Shown here: piece after piece, positions 31 to 11,311 of the stretch | Layout: the number at the start of each line of letters is the position of its first letter | How positions within the stretch are numbered: the stretch's first letter is position 1 | Assembly (NCBI RefSeq): GCF_029263665.1 | Contig: NZ_JAJUFQ010000001.1 | Coordinates: forward strand, 124,001-188,000 | Source: Halomonas sp. | Lineage (GTDB): Bacteria; Pseudomonadota; Gammaproteobacteria; Pseudomonadales; Halomonadaceae | DNA: 64,000 bases | Direction of reading: 5' to 3' | Position numbers and translations under genes: made by a program | Notes under the pieces: generated by a model | Database searches by the model: none | What the model was told of the DNA's origin: nothing | The model's input: the letters and a program-made list of their open reading frames with translations, nothing else

Positions 31-1059
31 ATGACGACTCGTGACGATATCCGCACCGATATTCAAAGCCTGGAAGCTGCCGTTGGCGAATCCATCATCG
101 GCCAACGCGATGTCATCCGGCGCCTGATCATTGGATTGCTGGCCAATGGCAACCTGTTGATCGAAGGCCTTCCAGGGTTGGCCAAGACACGTGCCATCAA
201 GGCCCTGTCGAGACACCTGGAAGCTGATTTCAGCCGCATTCAGTTCACCCCCGATCTGCTTCCTTCGGATGTCACTGGCAGTGAAATCTATCATCAGGGA
301 GAAGGCGGCCCTCAATTCCGTTTCCAGCCCGGCCCGCTGTTCGCCAACCTGGTATTGGCCGACGAGATCAATCGGGCCCCCGCCAAGGTGCAATCGGCAC
401 TGCTCGAAGCCATGGAAGAACGCCAGGTGACGGTTGCCGGGACAACACACCCCATGCCGGAGCTGTTCATGGTGCTGGCGACCCAGAACCCCATTGAGCA
501 GGAAGGCACCTACCCGCTACCTGAAGCCCAGATGGACCGTTTCCTGATGCACGTACTGATCCACTACCCCAGCGTGGAGGAGGAAGTGGAAGTGATTCGC
601 CTGGTGCGGCGCGAGGAAGTGACCAATGCAATGCGCGCAGCTCAATCCATGGATGCTGCGGTACAAGATAGTGAAACACCACCACCGCAGCCGGTAAGAA
701 TTTCCCAGGCATCGGTCTTTGCTGCACGTCGGGAAATTGCCAACTTGCATGTCAGTGACCCGGTCGAGCGCTACATGGCCGATCTGATCGAAGCGACACG
801 CACCCCGGCAGCGCTGTCCGAGGATCTGGGACGCTGGATCGAGCTGGGCGCCAGCCCTCGTGCCTCCCTGGCGTTGGATCGCTGCGGACGCACCCATGCC
901 TGGCTCGCCGGTCGTGATTATCTGGATCCTGAGGATGTTCAGGCCATTGCCCATGATGTGTTGCGCCATCGCATCGGTCTGAGCTTCGAAGCTCAGGGAG
1001 ACGGTGTCAGTGCCGATGATGCCATCGAGGAACTGATCCGCCTGGTTGCTCTCCCCTGA
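31..1059 (+). CDS. MoxR-family AAA+ ATPase
   Basis: ORF with Walker A-like GLPGLAKT, Walker B LVLADEINRAPAK and ATQNPIEQEGTYPLPEAQ(M/L)DRF, typical of MoxR; first gene of a bat-type operon. Confidence 0.95.
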   Translation: MTTRDDIRTDIQSLEAAVGESIIGQRDVIRRLIIGLLANGNLLIEGLPGLAKTRAIKALSRHLEADFSRIQFTPDLLPSDVTGSEIYHQGEGGPQFRFQPGPLFANLVLADEINRAPAKVQSALLEAMEERQVTVAGTTHPMPELFMVLATQNPIEQEGTYPLPEAQMDRFLMHVLIHYPSVEEEVEVIRLVRREEVTNAMRAAQSMDAAVQDSETPPPQPVRISQASVFAARREIANLHVSDPVERYMADLIEATRTPAALSEDLGRWIELGASPRASLALDRCGRTHAWLAGRDYLDPEDVQAIAHDVLRHRIGLSFEAQGDGVSADDAIEELIRLVALP

Positions 1060-1083: not shown

Positions 1084-2100
1084 ATGCATGCCGCCACCGC
1101 TCGTCTGCGTACAGCAACCCTGAGCCATGGACGGGTGCAGGGAAGCCAGACCAGTGCGCCTTCCCCAGACCACAGGGTGCATGTGGATCTTGCCTACCTG
1201 CAGTCGCTGGAACCGCAGGGCTCCAAGCTGAGACTGCTACCGCGTCAGCCTGCCCGTAGTGTGCTCAATGGCCGCCATGGCTCGCGCCTGCGTGGGCGGG
1301 GTCTCGATTTTCTCGAGCTGCGCAATTACTTGCCATCGGATGACGTGCGCAGCATCGACTGGCATGTCACCGCGCGCACCGGTGTCCCGCATGTGCGGGT
1401 ATTCACTGAAGAACGCGACCGCCCCACTCTGCTGGTCGTCGACCAGCGCATGTCGATGTTCTTTGGCTCTCGACATGCCATGAAGTCTGTCACGGCGGCG
1501 GAAACCGCTGCTCTACTGGGCTTCGCTGTCCTCGCCCAGAATGATCGCATCGGTGGCATCGTCATTCGTGATGACGGCCTCGACGAAGTTCGCCCCAAGC
1601 GTTCCCGTGCCACACTGATGCGCTTGTTCAGGCACCTCGCCGAGGCCAATAGTGCATTGCATGCCAAACGCCCAGCGCCTGCTCCTACTTCGCTGGATGC
1701 CATACTCACGTCGGTTTCACGCCTTGCCAAGCGTGATCACCTGATCGTGATATTGAGCGATTTCGATGTCATAGGGCCACGCAGCGAAGCCTTGCTCAGC
1801 GTGCTGTGTCGTCACAACAACGTGGTGCTGGCACCGGTCAGCGATCCCTTGTCCGAGTCGCTGCCCCATGACTGGCGTCGGGTAGTCAGTGATGGACAGC
1901 TACAGGCCACTCTGGACACATCCGACAAGCAGGTTCACCGCGCTCTGCAAGCCGTCTCCGATCAACGTCGGGAGATATTGGCTGACTGGCAGCGCCGATT
2001 CGGCATGATCCTGGCGCCACTTTCTGCAGGCGAGCCTGCGCTTCCACAGCTGCGCAAGCTGCTCGGCCTGGCAAGCCGGGACAGGAGGCCATCGTCATGA
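1084..2100 (+). CDS. DUF58 domain protein
   Basis: GSRLRGRGLDFLELRNYLPSDDVRSIDWHVTARTG motif typical of DUF58; follows moxR. Confidence 0.92.
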   Translation: MHAATARLRTATLSHGRVQGSQTSAPSPDHRVHVDLAYLQSLEPQGSKLRLLPRQPARSVLNGRHGSRLRGRGLDFLELRNYLPSDDVRSIDWHVTARTGVPHVRVFTEERDRPTLLVVDQRMSMFFGSRHAMKSVTAAETAALLGFAVLAQNDRIGGIVIRDDGLDEVRPKRSRATLMRLFRHLAEANSALHAKRPAPAPTSLDAILTSVSRLAKRDHLIVILSDFDVIGPRSEALLSVLCRHNNVVLAPVSDPLSESLPHDWRRVVSDGQLQATLDTSDKQVHRALQAVSDQRREILADWQRRFGMILAPLSAGEPALPQLRKLLGLASRDRRPSS

Positions 2101-2678
2101 GCATGGAAGCCGCTACCGATAATGCGCAGCGCGAAACCCCATTGATGCTGTCGCAACTGATCGACCAGTTGTCCCCACCACCAGAGCCCTCTCCGGTACC
2201 TTGGCTGCCCCAGACCTGGGGCTGGGCGGTACTGACCACTATCCTTACTCTGGTACTGCTGTGGTTTGTCCTGCGCCACTGGAAACGCTGGCGCAGCAAT
2301 ACGTATCGCCGCGAAGCCTTGCGCGAACTTGATCGACGCCTTGCACAAGGGGAAGGCCTGGCGGCAGTGGCCGATATACTGAGGCGGACAGCACTTGCCG
2401 CCTGGCCTCGGGATCAGGTGGCAGCATTACGCGGAGAGGCCTGGGTTGCCTTTCTGGATCGCCACTTCCCGACGTCCCGATACGGTCGTTTCAGCGGACC
2501 TCTCGGCATTGCCTTGATCAACGCCCCCTACCGCCCCGGCCATGACAGCGAGGCACTAGACCAACTCGCAAACCTGACCCGTCATTGGATTCGACATCAC
2601 ACCACCAATAGACAACCGTCAGCCATCGACAACCACAAGCCATCACCAGCAACCATCAGGAGCAGCGCCAATGATTGA
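2097..2678 (+). CDS. DUF4381 domain membrane protein
   Basis: Single TM helix, position between DUF58 and VWA genes, 4-bp overlap with the upstream gene. Confidence 0.8.
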   Translation: MSMEAATDNAQRETPLMLSQLIDQLSPPPEPSPVPWLPQTWGWAVLTTILTLVLLWFVLRHWKRWRSNTYRREALRELDRRLAQGEGLAAVADILRRTALAAWPRDQVAALRGEAWVAFLDRHFPTSRYGRFSGPLGIALINAPYRPGHDSEALDQLANLTRHWIRHHTTNRQPSAIDNHKPSPATIRSSAND

Positions 2679-3750
2679 ACTGGCGAGCCCCCTGGCATTG
2701 GTGTTGCTGCCACTTCCCTTGCTGGTCATGTGGCTGGTGCCTGCTCATCGTGAGCGGCTCACTGCCATGCGCCTGCCGTTCTTTGAACGCTTCGTCGAGG
2801 CTGCTGGCATCACGCCTGCTGCCGGGGCAACTGTCCCCCAGCGCAGCCGGATCATGCTGGTGGCTGGCGTACTGATATGGGGACTGATCGTGCTGGCACT
2901 GGCGCGTCCCGAACAGATCAGCCCCCCGATCCGCTGGGACAGTGCTGCTCGCGATCTGATCATGGCCGTGGATATTTCCGGTTCCATGGACGAGAAGGAC
3001 TTTCCTTCCGATAACGGCCAACCGATTCAGCGCCTGGCCGGAGTCAAGGAAGTCATTTCCGATTTCTTCGATACACGGGAAGGAGAACGCCTGGCCCTGA
3101 TCGTGTTCGGCACCAAGGCCTTTGTTCAGGCGCCACTGACGGAAGACCTCGACACGCTTCAGGCATTGCTGGATGGCACCGAGGTCGGCATGGCAGGCCC
3201 GCATACGGCCCTGGGCGATGCCGTCGGCCTGTCCATTCGTCAATTCGAGACCAGTCAGGTGGAACAGCGCCTGTTGATTCTGCTCAGTGACGGTTCCGAT
3301 ACCGGAAGTCGCATGAGCCCGATCAATGCCGCAGAAATTGCGGCACAACGCGGTGTTCGCATCATCACCATCGGCGTAGGCGACCCTCAGGGAGAAGGTG
3401 AGAATCGCGTTGACCTCAATACCCTGAAGGCTATCGCGCAGCGCACTGGCGGCGCCTTCTTTACGGCCTCTGACCAGAACGCCCTGGCCCAGGTCTACGC
3501 ACGTATCGATGAACTGGCCCCGCGCAAGACAGCCAGCCAGAGCTATCGCCAGCACCGCTCCCTGGCTCACTGGCCCATGGGTGCCGCCGCCATCCTTGCT
3601 TTGTTGATGTTGTCATTCCAGATATGGCGCCCTCGTTCTCTCCAGCGCTCTCTTCAAACTGCGAGCCAACGCACAGGCCAGGCTACGGAGCAACATACAG
3701 AACAACGTACAGAACAACGTAATGAGCAACGAAGGAGGGCCGCATCATGA
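2671..3750 (+). CDS. VWA domain membrane protein (BatA-like)
   Basis: MIDAS DISGSMDEKDF, VWA fold, TM helices at both ends; overlaps the upstream gene. Confidence 0.92.
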   Translation: MIELASPLALVLLPLPLLVMWLVPAHRERLTAMRLPFFERFVEAAGITPAAGATVPQRSRIMLVAGVLIWGLIVLALARPEQISPPIRWDSAARDLIMAVDISGSMDEKDFPSDNGQPIQRLAGVKEVISDFFDTREGERLALIVFGTKAFVQAPLTEDLDTLQALLDGTEVGMAGPHTALGDAVGLSIRQFETSQVEQRLLILLSDGSDTGSRMSPINAAEIAAQRGVRIITIGVGDPQGEGENRVDLNTLKAIAQRTGGAFFTASDQNALAQVYARIDELAPRKTASQSYRQHRSLAHWPMGAAAILALLMLSFQIWRPRSLQRSLQTASQRTGQATEQHTEQRTEQRNEQRRRAAS

Positions 3751-5339
3751 ATACCTCCTTCGATGCCTTTTTCGATGCACTTTCCGCCCTGCATTTCCTG
3801 CGCCCTGCGTGGCTGCTGCTGTTGCCGATCATTGTGGTCTTCTGGTGGTGGTGGCGCCGCCATCAACAAGCTGGCACAGGACAGACACCACATATCGCCG
3901 CACATCTCGAAAAGGCCATGCGCATCGGGACCCAACAGCGCCGCTGGATCACTCCGGTAGATACCCTCAGCTTGATGTTGATACTGCTGGTGACAGGAGC
4001 CGCCGGACCGAGCTGGAGCCGCATGCCCAATCCACTGATCGCCCAGACGGCTCCCTTGGTGGTGGTGGTCGAAGTCGACCAGGGCATGCTGGCCCAGGAT
4101 GTGCCACCCAACCGCCTGGAACGGGCCAAGCACAAGATCTCCGACCTCCTGGCTACCCGTAGCGGCGCCGATACAGCCCTGGTCGCCTACTCAGGGTCCG
4201 CTCATCTGGTGGTACCACTGACCAATGACCCTGAACTGATCAAGCCCTATCTCGAAGGCCTGACGCCAGACGTCATGCCTCAGGCTGGTGACGGTGCGGC
4301 AAGTGATGCGCTGACACTCGCCCAGGAGCAATTGGCCAAGCGAGAAGAACCTGGCGCCATCCTGTTCGTGACCGATGGACTGAGTACCACTGACCGCGAC
4401 GCCTTCAGTCAACAGGATGACACCACTCTAGCCTTTCTGGTCATGGCACCAGGCAATGTCGCCACACCGGTGATCGATGCCGTGGATGCAGAACGAGTCG
4501 CGGTCAGTGCCGATGAGCGGGATATTCAGCACCTGGAACGCCTGCTGGCTGCCGCTCACCGCCGTGCACTGCTCAATGATGATCGACTGGCCTGGGAAGA
4601 CCGAGGCATGTGGCTGGCCTGGCCCGCCGCACTGCTGGCACTGCTGTGGTTCCGACGCGGTTGGGGGCTTGGGACGTCATCGTTGCTGGCATGCTTCCTG
4701 TTGCTGCCCTGGCCTGCCACCGTTCCCCAGGCCATGGCTCAGAATCAGGTCACGATCAGGGCCCAAGACAGCGACGAGTCTCACGGCAGCTTCAAGCAGT
4801 GGTTGGCCGATGCTTTTCTCACCCCTGATCAGCAAGGCCGCTGGTGGGTGGAACATCGCAGCTACAAGCGTGCTGCAGAGCACTTTCAAGATCCCAACTG
4901 GCAGGGCTATGCCCTGTACCGGGATGGCCAGTATGACGCGGCCGCCGAACTGCTCGGTCGACTGGACAGCGCAGATGCTGCCTTTACTCAGGGCCTGGCG
5001 CTAATCAGAGGACATCAGTATCGCCCTGCTGTACAGGCTTTCGAGAAGGTGCTCAGCATCGACCCCGATTACCCTCAAGGCGAACGCAATCTTGAACTGG
5101 CCAAACGCATCCTCACTTATGTGGAAGAGTCCAGAGAACAATCAGACACCGGACAGGACGATGCCGACGATGTCACCTTCGACAACGAGGAAAACCGTGG
5201 GCAGGATACACAGGTCACCCCCAAGGATGGAGAAGGCATGCTGACGGCCGAGCAATGGATATCAACCCTGAACAGCAACACTTCCGACTATCTGCGCCAA
5301 CGTTTTGCTGTGGAAGCCCGCCAGGGAGCAACGCCATGA
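3747..5339 (+). CDS. VWA plus TPR protein (BatB/BatC-like)
   Basis: N-terminal VWA-like domain, TM helices, C-terminal TPR segment (LGRLDSADAAFTQGLALIRGHQYRPAVQAFEKVLSIDPDYPQGERNLELA). Confidence 0.88.
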   Translation: MNTSFDAFFDALSALHFLRPAWLLLLPIIVVFWWWWRRHQQAGTGQTPHIAAHLEKAMRIGTQQRRWITPVDTLSLMLILLVTGAAGPSWSRMPNPLIAQTAPLVVVVEVDQGMLAQDVPPNRLERAKHKISDLLATRSGADTALVAYSGSAHLVVPLTNDPELIKPYLEGLTPDVMPQAGDGAASDALTLAQEQLAKREEPGAILFVTDGLSTTDRDAFSQQDDTTLAFLVMAPGNVATPVIDAVDAERVAVSADERDIQHLERLLAAAHRRALLNDDRLAWEDRGMWLAWPAALLALLWFRRGWGLGTSSLLACFLLLPWPATVPQAMAQNQVTIRAQDSDESHGSFKQWLADAFLTPDQQGRWWVEHRSYKRAAEHFQDPNWQGYALYRDGQYDAAAELLGRLDSADAAFTQGLALIRGHQYRPAVQAFEKVLSIDPDYPQGERNLELAKRILTYVEESREQSDTGQDDADDVTFDNEENRGQDTQVTPKDGEGMLTAEQWISTLNSNTSDYLRQRFAVEARQGATP

Positions 5340-8300
5340 GGCTGTTGAGTGGTTTCCTGATTACCCTGCTGTGCAGCTGCCCGTTGCTCTTTCCCGCGAC
5401 AGCCATGGCCCAAGCCGACTCGCCATCCCGGCCAGACAATACAGCAGAGCCTACACCACAGGTCAGCGCTAGCGTGACCCCGCAACAGGTCGCTCCAGGA
5501 CAAAGCGCCCGTTTGCGCATCACCGTATTGGTGCCGACCTATATGCCCAAACCGGTCGTGTTTCCTTCACTGGATATGGCCAACCTGCAAGTGGCATTAC
5601 CCGAACGCTCCACAACCCCCACCAGCGAGCGAATCGATGGTCAGACCTGGTCTGGCGTTACCCGTAGTTATCAGTTGACGCCACTCGCCCCCGGAAACTT
5701 TGCCTTGAACCATGAGCCGCTTGAAGTGACCTACAGCAATCCAGAAGATGCCACCTCGCCCATTGTCAGCAAGCTGAAACTGCCCACCTTGTCATTGGCT
5801 TCTGTGGTGCCGCAGGCCGCCCAAGGGCTTGATCCTTATGTCGCCGCCACTTCCCTGCACATGGAGCAGGCCTTGCATGTCGTGCATGCGAACACAGACC
5901 AGGACGAAGCCAGGACAGATGGCCCTGCCTCTTCCGCCGGTGCCGCGTCAGCCTCTACTCCCGATGACAAGCAGCCTATTGCATTGCAAAGCGGCGACAG
6001 TTTGCGCCGGGAAATCAGCATCACCCTGGAAGGAGGCAGTGCGCTCTTGATCCCTGCTCTGTTGGATGACACAGCTCCCATGGGCCTGGGAGTCTACCCT
6101 GAGTCGCCCAAGGTCGACATGAATGCCAATGGCGGCACGCGCCAGGAAGCCATCACCTATGTGGCTGAAGGAGTTTCCAATGGACAGCTCCCTGCCATCC
6201 ATCTGCGCTGGTTCAACCTTCAGAGCGGTACGATCGAAGAAGCCTCTGTTCCTTCTGTGCATGTCAGTGCCGAAGGCTCTCCACTGGACCAACTGCGTCA
6301 TCAGGGTGTTGCGTGGAAAAGCATCATACTGAGCACGATCGCGGGTCTGGCTGCTCTATCACTGAGCCTGTGGATCCTCATTCGGGCATGGCGATATTGG
6401 GGACGCGCCTATTGGCATACTTTGCTCAGAAGCTGGCAGAAGACCCACCTCCCGCCCCTCAATCCTGCTGGTCGCACTTCCCTGTTTCTGCTGGCGATCG
6501 CCCTGGCATTCAGCATGCTGGTCCAGAGCCCTGGCGCCATGGCACAGGACAGCACCAAGAAGGAGGAAAGCGCTCAGGCTGAAAAAAGTGCCCAGCCAGA
6601 GGAAATGACCAGGCCCCCCCATGGCCAGCTACCTGGATATGCTGCCGATGCCGCGAACTACGCGCCGGATGGCAGCTGCGCTGGCTGTCACCAGGCCGAA
6701 TCCGAAGCCTGGAAGGACTCCGACCACGGTTGGTCCATGCGTGAGGCAACAGAGGACAATGTGCTTGGTGACTTCGAAGATGCCACTTTCGAAGATGGCC
6801 CGGTCAAGGCACGCTTTTTCCATGATGATGAAGGCTACAAGGCGACTCTTGAAGGACCGGACGATCCCGCAAAGACCTATCGCATCCGCTATACCTTTGG
6901 CTATTCTCCCCTTCAGCAATACCTGGTCGCGCTGCCCGGCGGCAAGTTGCAGGGATTGACCATCGCCTGGGATTCACGCCCAGAGGAGCAAGGTGGGCAA
7001 CGCTGGTTTTCGCTCTACCCGGGACAGGCCTTCACCCCGGATGATCCGCTGCACTGGCGTGGGCGTTACCAGAACTGGAACGCCATGTGCGCCGATTGCC
7101 ATTCGACCAACCTGCAGAAGAACTACGACGAAGCCTCAGATACCTTCGCGACGACCTGGCACGAACAGAACGTCGGCTGCCAAAGCTGTCATGGACCTGC
7201 TCAATCCCATCTCGACTGGGCCAATGGTGAGAAGCACAATCCAGCCGGAGAAGCTGGGACAAAAGAAGCTGAAACAGGAAAAGCCGGGATAGGAGAAGAC
7301 GAACCAAGCACTGAAGACATGGGGCTGGCGGTGGACCTGAAAAATACCAAGGGGCCAGCGCTGGTCGAGCAATGTGCCACCTGTCATAGCCGCCGTCAGA
7401 TGCTCGGCGTTGGCCCGGGGCCAGGTCATGGCAAGCCGCTGACCGATACCGCACTGCCCAGCCTGCTGAGCGAAGGGCTCTACCATGCCGACGGTCAGAT
7501 CCAGGGCGAAGTCTATGTCTACGGTTCCTTTGTCCAGAGCCGGATGTATGAAGCAGGTGTCGCTTGCAGCGATTGTCACGATCCCCACACCACCAAGATA
7601 CGTATTCAGGGCAACGGTCTATGTACCCAATGCCATAACCTGGCACCTCCAGCGCGCTTCCCAACACTGAAGCCAGGAGACTACGACAATCCGGACCACT
7701 ATCATCACGAGCGAGGCTCCGAGGGAGCCCAATGCGTCAATTGCCATATGCCGGAAACCACCTACATGGTGGTGGACCCGCGTCGCGATCACAGCTTCCG
7801 TGTGCCACGCCCGGATCTTGATGGCAAGACCGATAGCCCGGATGCCTGCACTGGCTGCCATCAGGACCAGTCACCGGCTCAGGCTGCCAGTTCCATTCAG
7901 CAATGGTTCGGAGAACTGTCCCGTGCCAACACCACGTCGCATTACGGGGTCACTCTCCAGGCTGCCCGTCAGGGAGACCCCGAGGCACTGGATGGGCTCG
8001 TTGCCCTGAGCCAGGACACCGACACACCTGACATCGTCCGAGCCACTGCTGTCGATGCTCTGGCCGCTTATGGCACTCCAGCTATCCCAACGCTGGAACA
8101 GGCATTGAAGGATGATTCCAGCCTGGTACGTGCCGCAGCGATTCCCCCTTTCGCCCAGGCACCGGATGAAGCGCGTATCGAGCTGCTATTGCCATTGGTC
8201 GATGACCCTCGCCTGGCCGTACGCGACGAAGCGATCAAGGCCCTGGCAGGTACGTCGATGATGCTGATTCCCGAAGCACAGCGCGAAATGGTCGTCGAAG

Positions 8301-8908
8301 CACGCAATGACTATGAGCGTCGTCTGCGTGAAAACGCCGATCTGCCTGGCAATCGACTCAACCTGGCGGTATTGCTGGAACGTACACGCCGCAAGGACGA
8401 GGCCGCAGAACAATACCGTGCGGCACTCAAGCTCGACCCCTACTTCCTTCCTGCGCGAGTCAACCTGGCCACATTGCTGAGCCGCAGCGGTGATATTGAA
8501 GGCGCTCAGGAAACGCTCCGCGCAGGTGTCGCTCTTGATGAAATGCCCAAGCCGGACCGTGGTCATCTGGCCTATCTATTGGCATTGGGCCTGGCGGAAC
8601 AGGGCCAACGCGAAGAGGCGCTGGAATGGTTGGACAACGCTGCAAAGTGGCGCCCCAACCATGCACGAACCTACTACAATCAAGGACTACTGCTGGATCG
8701 ACTGGGGCGCAAGGACGAAGCACTGACCTCCTTGGAAACCGGGTTGACTCATGCCCCTGATGACCCGGACCTGCTTTATGCCCTGGTCTATCTGCACGCC
8801 ACCCTGGGCCATGTTCCACAGGCGCTGGAAGCCTTGTCCCAGCTACGCCAGCTGCGTCCTGACGACCCTCGCCTTCAGCGTCTGGAAGGCCAGCTTCGTG
8901 GGCAATGA
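5336..8908 (+). CDS. BatD-like domain fused to multiheme cytochrome c with HEAT/TPR-like repeats
   Basis: ATG at 5336 overlaps the preceding stop; signal peptide; BatD-like N-terminus (SASVTPQQVAPGQSARLRITV); two TM segments in the middle; then CAGCH, CADCH, CQSCH, CATCH, CSDCH, CTQCH, CVNCH, CTGCH; then HEAT-like and TPR repeats. One uninterrupted frame. Confidence 0.85.
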   Translation: MRLLSGFLITLLCSCPLLFPATAMAQADSPSRPDNTAEPTPQVSASVTPQQVAPGQSARLRITVLVPTYMPKPVVFPSLDMANLQVALPERSTTPTSERIDGQTWSGVTRSYQLTPLAPGNFALNHEPLEVTYSNPEDATSPIVSKLKLPTLSLASVVPQAAQGLDPYVAATSLHMEQALHVVHANTDQDEARTDGPASSAGAASASTPDDKQPIALQSGDSLRREISITLEGGSALLIPALLDDTAPMGLGVYPESPKVDMNANGGTRQEAITYVAEGVSNGQLPAIHLRWFNLQSGTIEEASVPSVHVSAEGSPLDQLRHQGVAWKSIILSTIAGLAALSLSLWILIRAWRYWGRAYWHTLLRSWQKTHLPPLNPAGRTSLFLLAIALAFSMLVQSPGAMAQDSTKKEESAQAEKSAQPEEMTRPPHGQLPGYAADAANYAPDGSCAGCHQAESEAWKDSDHGWSMREATEDNVLGDFEDATFEDGPVKARFFHDDEGYKATLEGPDDPAKTYRIRYTFGYSPLQQYLVALPGGKLQGLTIAWDSRPEEQGGQRWFSLYPGQAFTPDDPLHWRGRYQNWNAMCADCHSTNLQKNYDEASDTFATTWHEQNVGCQSCHGPAQSHLDWANGEKHNPAGEAGTKEAETGKAGIGEDEPSTEDMGLAVDLKNTKGPALVEQCATCHSRRQMLGVGPGPGHGKPLTDTALPSLLSEGLYHADGQIQGEVYVYGSFVQSRMYEAGVACSDCHDPHTTKIRIQGNGLCTQCHNLAPPARFPTLKPGDYDNPDHYHHERGSEGAQCVNCHMPETTYMVVDPRRDHSFRVPRPDLDGKTDSPDACTGCHQDQSPAQAASSIQQWFGELSRANTTSHYGVTLQAARQGDPEALDGLVALSQDTDTPDIVRATAVDALAAYGTPAIPTLEQALKDDSSLVRAAAIPPFAQAPDEARIELLLPLVDDPRLAVRDEAIKALAGTSMMLIPEAQREMVVEARNDYERRLRENADLPGNRLNLAVLLERTRRKDEAAEQYRAALKLDPYFLPARVNLATLLSRSGDIEGAQETLRAGVALDEMPKPDRGHLAYLLALGLAEQGQREEALEWLDNAAKWRPNHARTYYNQGLLLDRLGRKDEALTSLETGLTHAPDDPDLLYALVYLHATLGHVPQALEALSQLRQLRPDDPRLQRLEGQLRGQ

Positions 8909-9088: not shown

Positions 9089-11311
<2,223 letters not shown>

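Follow-up and report, generated by a model that had tools for sequence, protein, structure and literature searches.

Our results suggest a third way of activating sulfatases in bacteria, since an octaheme cytochrome repeatedly takes the operon position that elsewhere belongs to one of the two known activators, FGE and anSME. Type I sulfatases need formylglycine and, to our knowledge, its only established makers are FGE, a copper oxidase, and anSME, a radical SAM enzyme. Judged from its genomic context, the cytochrome is probably a third, heme-based sulfatase-activating factor, functionally equivalent to FGE and anSME, and would here be tethered to the Bat complex. This reading builds on what we observed directly: a gene fusion, its conservation, its operon, the co-occurrence of cytochrome and sulfatase, and the exchange of the operon slot. 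In the open-access papers searched we found no link of sulfatases with MoxR, BatD, multiheme proteins or cytochrome c; heme-based sulfatase activation would apparently be a route so far unrecognised.

A single gene joins BatD to an octaheme cytochrome

The genes analysed were first annotated as a MoxR/VWA (bat-type) operon closed by a BatD-cytochrome fusion. The gene order agrees with this (Table 1), but the true start of the operon lies outside the window, that is, the whole stretch of 64,000 nucleotides that was analysed. Upstream of it, in the same genome, genes for a Cys-type sulfatase (motif SCTAGR) and a HAD phosphatase run directly into the MoxR gene. Directly downstream of the fusion (9113-11311 of the window) lies a gene that, from the appearance of its sequence only, encodes a catalase-peroxidase (KatG-like).

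Table 1. Features of the bat operon and of its terminal fusion gene (positions in the window; residues of the fusion protein; a slash marks the predicted cleavage site)
Feature	Position	Strand	Basis
MoxR AAA+ ATPase	31..1059	+	Pfam AAA_3 3e-63, AAA_lid_2
DUF58 protein	1084..2100	+	PF01882 1e-38
DUF4381 protein	2097..2678	+	PF14316 1e-33
BatA-like VWA protein	2671..3750	+	PF00092 3e-18; NF047508 2e-40, under that model's cutoff
BatB-like VWA + TPR protein	3747..5339	+	PF13519 2e-13 and weak TPR
BatD::octaheme cytochrome fusion, 1190 aa	5336..8908	+	single ORF; same fusion in G206, dN/dS 0.11
BatD periplasmic part, two predicted beta-sandwich domains, about residues 42-313	5459..6274	+	AlphaFold from 30 BatDs; alignment A2
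BatD transmembrane segment, about residues 328-349	6317..6382	+	sequence; model helix 316-371
Retained BatD C-terminal motif LPPLNP, residues 372-377	6449..6466	+	LxxLNP ends at least 90% of 30 BatDs
Internal hydrophobic segment TSLFLLAIALAFSMLVQSPGAMA, residues 381-403, putatively derived from the signal peptide of the cytochrome; signal peptidase I predicted to cleave behind A403	6476..6544	+	signal peptide at start of relatives' cytochrome gene; AMA/QD here, VMA/QD in G206
Octaheme domain, eight CxxCH, residues 448-842	6677..7861	+	invariant in 81 homologues; AlphaFold mean pLDDT 90 (758-residue cytochrome part)
HEAT-like repeats, about residues 876-970	7961..8245	+	PF13646 5e-12
TPR repeats, about residues 1006-1187; part kept in FGE-bearing sister genus	8351..8896	+	PF14559 6e-19

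As the initial annotation had stated, the fusion is one uninterrupted frame (5336-8908, 1190 aa), and this frame is open further 5' to an ATG at 5255, overlapping batB. Residues 1 to about 377 correspond to BatD and begin with a signal peptide. The match of the fusion to the Pfam BatD model (PF13584) is sub-threshold, at 22.7 bits against a cutoff of 24.1; the BatD orthologue L032, to which the BatD part of the fusion is 45% identical, scores above the cutoff (31 bits). The AlphaFold model of BatD has two beta-sandwich domains and a long membrane helix, and the gene stands after those for BatA and BatB in the MoxR operon. Judged by orthology, structure model and operon position together, the N-terminal part is BatD, as first annotated. 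The domain searches and structure prediction that had been recommended for the two halves found the TPR and HEAT repeats by Pfam and the BatD beta-sandwiches by AlphaFold.

The fused BatD is a truncated variant, in which most of the C-terminal cytoplasmic domain is missing and the LPPLNP tail is kept. That BatDs share a cytoplasmic domain ending in LxxLNP is an observation from our own comparison rather than a criterion taken from the literature; the motif forms the C-terminus of almost every one of 30 BatDs, which come from Halomonas, Pseudomonas, Aeromonas, Marinobacter and Microbulbifer (alignment A2). In the fusion, the transmembrane segment is followed by a short basic stretch, by LPPLNP and then by a hydrophobic segment ending in SPGAMA/QD. 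In close relatives (L032, L033, L077, L058 and L003-L005) BatD and the cytochrome are encoded by two genes: the unfused BatDs have the cytoplasmic domain and end in LPPLNP or LNP, and the separate cytochrome gene begins with its own signal peptide. The fusion may have arisen in this genus when batD lost its stop codon and the region for the cytoplasmic domain, which would have joined BatD to the neighbouring cytochrome.

The comparison of relatives for fused versus separate genes, also recommended at the outset, recovered the same fusion in G206, a single-contig genome from a species other than that of the window, and two genes in the other relatives; only two species, both of the same genus, have the fusion. 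The G206 protein is 91% identical to that of the window, keeps all eight heme motifs and differs by an in-frame 6-codon indel in the linker. The overall dN/dS between the two is 0.11, with values of 0.22 for the BatD periplasmic part, 0.13 from the transmembrane segment to the tail, 0.07 for the heme domain and 0.04 for HEAT/TPR, and these low values across its parts argue that the fused gene is under selection. Note that the signal peptide and the linker evolve freely (dN/dS about 1.1-1.3, few sites) and that the cleavage motif stays acceptable. A fusion unique to two species, whose relatives carry two genes, could be a sequencing, assembly or pseudogene artefact. We regard this as barely credible, since an independent single-contig genome shares the fusion, with a frame-keeping indel, a low dN/dS and intact heme motifs; G206 already refutes the artefact, short of an identical error in both assemblies. 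An internal translation start, giving a separate cytochrome, was considered and rejected: between the BatD transmembrane segment and the second hydrophobic segment no start is conserved, no in-frame ATG or GTG occurs, and the sole candidate, TTG at 6422, is CTG in G206.

With its helix breaker and A-x-A site, the second hydrophobic segment is best interpreted as the ancestral signal peptide of the cytochrome. It had been annotated as a second transmembrane segment that returns the chain to the periplasm; this topology is supported, but the segment itself looks like a cleavable signal peptide. Both species retain the signal-peptidase site, cleavage being assessed by visual inspection, and the product may therefore be split into two proteins. 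The fusion would insert with the BatD periplasmic domains and the cytochrome on one side of the membrane, and would then either stay tethered as a single chain or be cut by signal peptidase at AMA/Q into BatD and a soluble cytochrome.

The octaheme TPR cytochrome family

The eight CxxCH motifs and the HEAT/TPR repeats of the first annotation were borne out by Pfam and by the invariance of the motifs in 81 homologues. We define here an octaheme TPR cytochrome family of sulfatase operons by eight CxxCH motifs, HEAT followed by TPR repeats, a length of about 750 aa and 40-74% identity, and the cytochrome part of the fusion has all of these features (homologue set, n=81; family alignment A1, 56 rows). 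The fusion contains neither an FGE (PF03781/SUMF1) domain nor a radical SAM/SPASM domain.

Among the 81 homologues, seven histidines outside the motifs show full or almost full conservation, and H717, as an eighth, is present in 88%. The sixth position of one heme may thus be open or variable, and such a heme is a possible reaction site. All eight heme motifs are CxxCH; the traits of HAO, NrfA or MccA would be a P460 cross-link, CxxCK or a comparable catalytic heme. The nearest solved multiheme sequence is OcwA, the Thermincola potens nonaheme cytochrome (PDB 6I5B; 2e-11, with similarity covering pieces only), and weak similarity was also seen to c554 and NrfA. An open-heme reaction site would need no CxxCK motif, since OcwA has five-coordinate hemes with histidine as proximal ligand (PMC6703420). 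A Foldseek search with the cytochrome gave no heme-domain fold among the matches listed, which were filled by TPR matches.

The cytochrome is linked to a Cys-type sulfatase

Across 80 homologous loci, the cytochrome adjoins a bat operon in 29, in four arrangements (same-strand upstream, same-strand downstream, divergent and convergent), which supports the functional Bat-cytochrome link proposed in the initial annotation. In the same loci its neighbours often include a sulfatase and a HAD phosphatase, even where bat is absent. The linked sulfatases of the main clade have an invariant SCTAGR, the Cys-type activation motif. Of 90 genomes of the genus, 10 have both cytochrome and sulfatase and the other 80 have neither; in a class-wide sampling of 276 genomes, the two genes occur together in 6, where about 0.6 would be expected. 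At 49 of 82 cytochrome loci no sulfatase lay within the stretch covered, partly since flanks were incomplete. The initial annotation had proposed that the complex may act on or mature a partner, and this went in the right direction but missed the partner, a secreted Cys-type sulfatase of the same operon.

That annotation also suggested here a Bat complex serving oxygen tolerance or general protein maturation, together with a multiheme redox protein and no specific client. PMC3557215 cites work in which Bat mutants of Bacteroides fragilis lost aerotolerance, and the loci where the cytochrome lies next to bat would fit this reading. However, cytochrome-sulfatase pairs are found without a nearby bat operon, and such bat operons also pair with a sulfatase plus FGE or anSME, so the sulfatase is the common element. 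Nothing found here points specifically to aerotolerance, and we consider a Bat complex of this kind very unlikely to be the explanation.

Several other features were observed around these loci. In Pseudomonas (L048, L049, L052, L057, L060 and L107), genes for an MscS-like channel and an AspT-like transporter recur upstream of the cytochrome, and a FadL-like porin gene recurs in other loci (L079, L085, L095 and L101). In Microbulbifer (L108 and L111), cytochrome and bat operon are divergent and the sulfatase is convergent, downstream of the cytochrome. On a Vibrio plasmid (L223:12126-13313) the cytochrome gene is broken up and annotated as fragments; a sulfatase gene and IS5 elements lie next to it. 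The genome of the window also encodes a second, more distant sulfatase (L146, G000:C26:197085-198611; 36% identity, SCTPGR) which, in a genome without FGE and anSME, would need the same activator in trans.

The cytochrome exchanges its operon slot with FGE and anSME

No FGE-domain protein and no anSME was found in the genome of the window. The 10 sulfatase genomes of the genus have no recognisable FGE: eight are without any PF03781 domain, and the PF03781 members of the other two (G199 and G177) lack the FGE copper-site cysteines. No anSME scored above the cutoff in these 10 genomes. This absence does not alone implicate the cytochrome, because E. coli matures Cys-type sulfatases by another route, not yet identified (PMC6189696). 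The sulfatase could likewise be matured by a housekeeping route, as inferred for E. coli, or be active without modification, given that a choline sulfatase in its unmodified form retains slow turnover (PMC6189696), with the cytochrome present for other reasons. Such an explanation leaves unaccounted for both the perfect co-occurrence in the genus and the repeated exchange with FGE and anSME, and we consider it improbable.

In the sister genus g4 the same operon has, in four of four genomes, lost the heme domain and kept the TPR part, and a canonical FGE lies directly downstream of this heme-less remnant (L126:10674-12520, L127:10971-12815, L163 and L164). The g4 FGE matches PDB 6s07 (3e-66) and carries KGGSHLCAPEYCQRYRPA; a family-wide search gave no heme-domain match in the four g4 genomes. 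This swap prompted a test in an unrelated (plasmid) collection. The bat operon ends in FGE in Agrobacterium and R. leguminosarum and in the cytochrome in Alloyangia, and in Pantoea anSME lies inside the bat operon, in the same slot. The order sulfatase-HAD-FGE is seen in Skermanella and sulfatase-HAD-cytochrome in Rhodobacteraceae SC52 and Roseibium; Paraburkholderia has anSME-sulfatase, anSME also occupies the slot in Aureibacter, and FGE-sulfatase pairs were also seen among plasmid loci.

We then counted partners at 59 sulfatase loci, hand-picked from match tables for taxonomic spread and not phylogenetically independent: 16 have the cytochrome, 17 FGE, 3 anSME, 23 none and 0 two of them. 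The probability of no overlap by chance is 3e-4, and 4e-3 for the plasmid loci alone, ignoring relatedness. Neither FGE nor anSME was found in any of the 82 cytochrome-centred loci. Moreover, a tree of 47 partnered sulfatases has at least nine partner changes between cytochrome and FGE or anSME, all forced by well-supported branches, and a second sulfatase tree with more rows agrees.

Alternatively, the cytochrome could have another redox role for the sulfatase (to keep its cysteine reduced after export, to repair sulfatase that has been over-oxidised or to oxidise what the sulfatase releases) and make no formylglycine. The operon and genome-wide link to the sulfatase would be expected in that case too, and OcwA, the nearest solved structure, is a reductase. 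However, the slot is exchanged with FGE and anSME, two enzymes that have formylglycine formation as their common known function, and the cytochrome is never beside either of them, whereas a helper or catabolic enzyme should accompany FGE. For these reasons we think that a redox role of this other kind is unlikely.

Two further candidates were rejected. Azospirillum, where a TPR protein stands beside a sulfatase and FGE, is not a counter-example, the TPR protein having no heme motifs. Replacement of FGE as a genome-wide rule does not hold, as 28 of 36 sampled cytochrome-bearing genomes hold PF03781 proteins; these are also present in all 10 class-sampled genomes with the sulfatase. Because many cytochrome-bearing genomes outside the genus hold such proteins, the mutual exclusion applies to single loci and not always to whole genomes.

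A model for heme-based sulfatase activation

The cytochrome, rather than Bat, is the candidate activator, because FGE or anSME alone replaces it while the bat genes stay, and because it also pairs with the sulfatase where no bat operon adjoins. From genomic context we infer that Bat is an accessory working with any of the three activators; MoxR with BatA, BatB and BatD would form a client-handling ATPase complex compatible with each. The persistence of the TPR arm in g4 without hemes suggests that this arm serves the client or Bat.

In the mechanism that we propose, the sulfatase of the operon, once exported, would offer its unmodified SCTAGR cysteine in the periplasm, where the TPR/HEAT arm or the Bat complex may hold it. 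The octaheme unit would oxidise the cysteine thiol by two electrons to a thioaldehyde, hydrolysis of which would yield formylglycine, and the electrons would then pass towards the respiratory chain. Since they would leave through the hemes, the reaction may need no O2. We lean, by a little, towards the full version of this model: a heme-based, periplasmic third class of formylglycine-generating enzyme in many Proteobacteria, repeatedly exchanged with FGE and anSME, acting after export with electrons leaving via the hemes, maybe O2-independent, and in this genus built into Bat.

If this is true, the cytochrome would be a new kind of protein-modifying enzyme, and sulfatase-bearing genomes without both known activators would be explained. 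It would also give a client to an orphan family of multiheme cytochromes and a concrete client pathway to the poorly understood MoxR/Bat complexes, and provide another means of installing aldehyde tags in proteins.

Comparison with known systems

FGE (SUMF1, PF03781) and the cytochrome share the operon slot beside the same sulfatase clade and, as proposed here, the product, formylglycine from the core cysteine; they have no sequence relation, FGE being described in PMC12123546 as a copper oxidase that uses O2 and the cytochrome being an exported octaheme c-type protein with HEAT/TPR repeats. anSME (TIGR03942) likewise shares the slot, in Pantoea, Paraburkholderia and Aureibacter, and the proposed product, but is a radical SAM/SPASM protein without hemes and unrelated to the cytochrome. 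A third sulfatase maturation system has been inferred in E. coli from mutants (Benjdia 2007, as cited in PMC6189696); it and the cytochrome would both be formylglycine routes outside FGE and anSME, that of the cytochrome being only proposed, and we do not claim that the two are the same. OcwA differs from the cytochrome in being a cell-surface terminal reductase without a HEAT/TPR arm.

As in the MoxR/VWA Bat operons of Bacteroides and Leptospira, MoxR, VWA proteins and BatD are encoded here in one cluster; the present operon differs from those in adding DUF58, DUF4381, sulfatase, HAD phosphatase and activator genes, and in the fusion of BatD to the cytochrome. Finally, a lead for the layout of this fusion is FbcH, the cytochrome b/c1 polyprotein of Bradyrhizobium, in which a membrane protein is followed, in one chain, by a c-type cytochrome, with a cleavable signal peptide between them. 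The two are alike in this layout, but the proteins are unrelated and cleavage is only predicted for the fusion described here.
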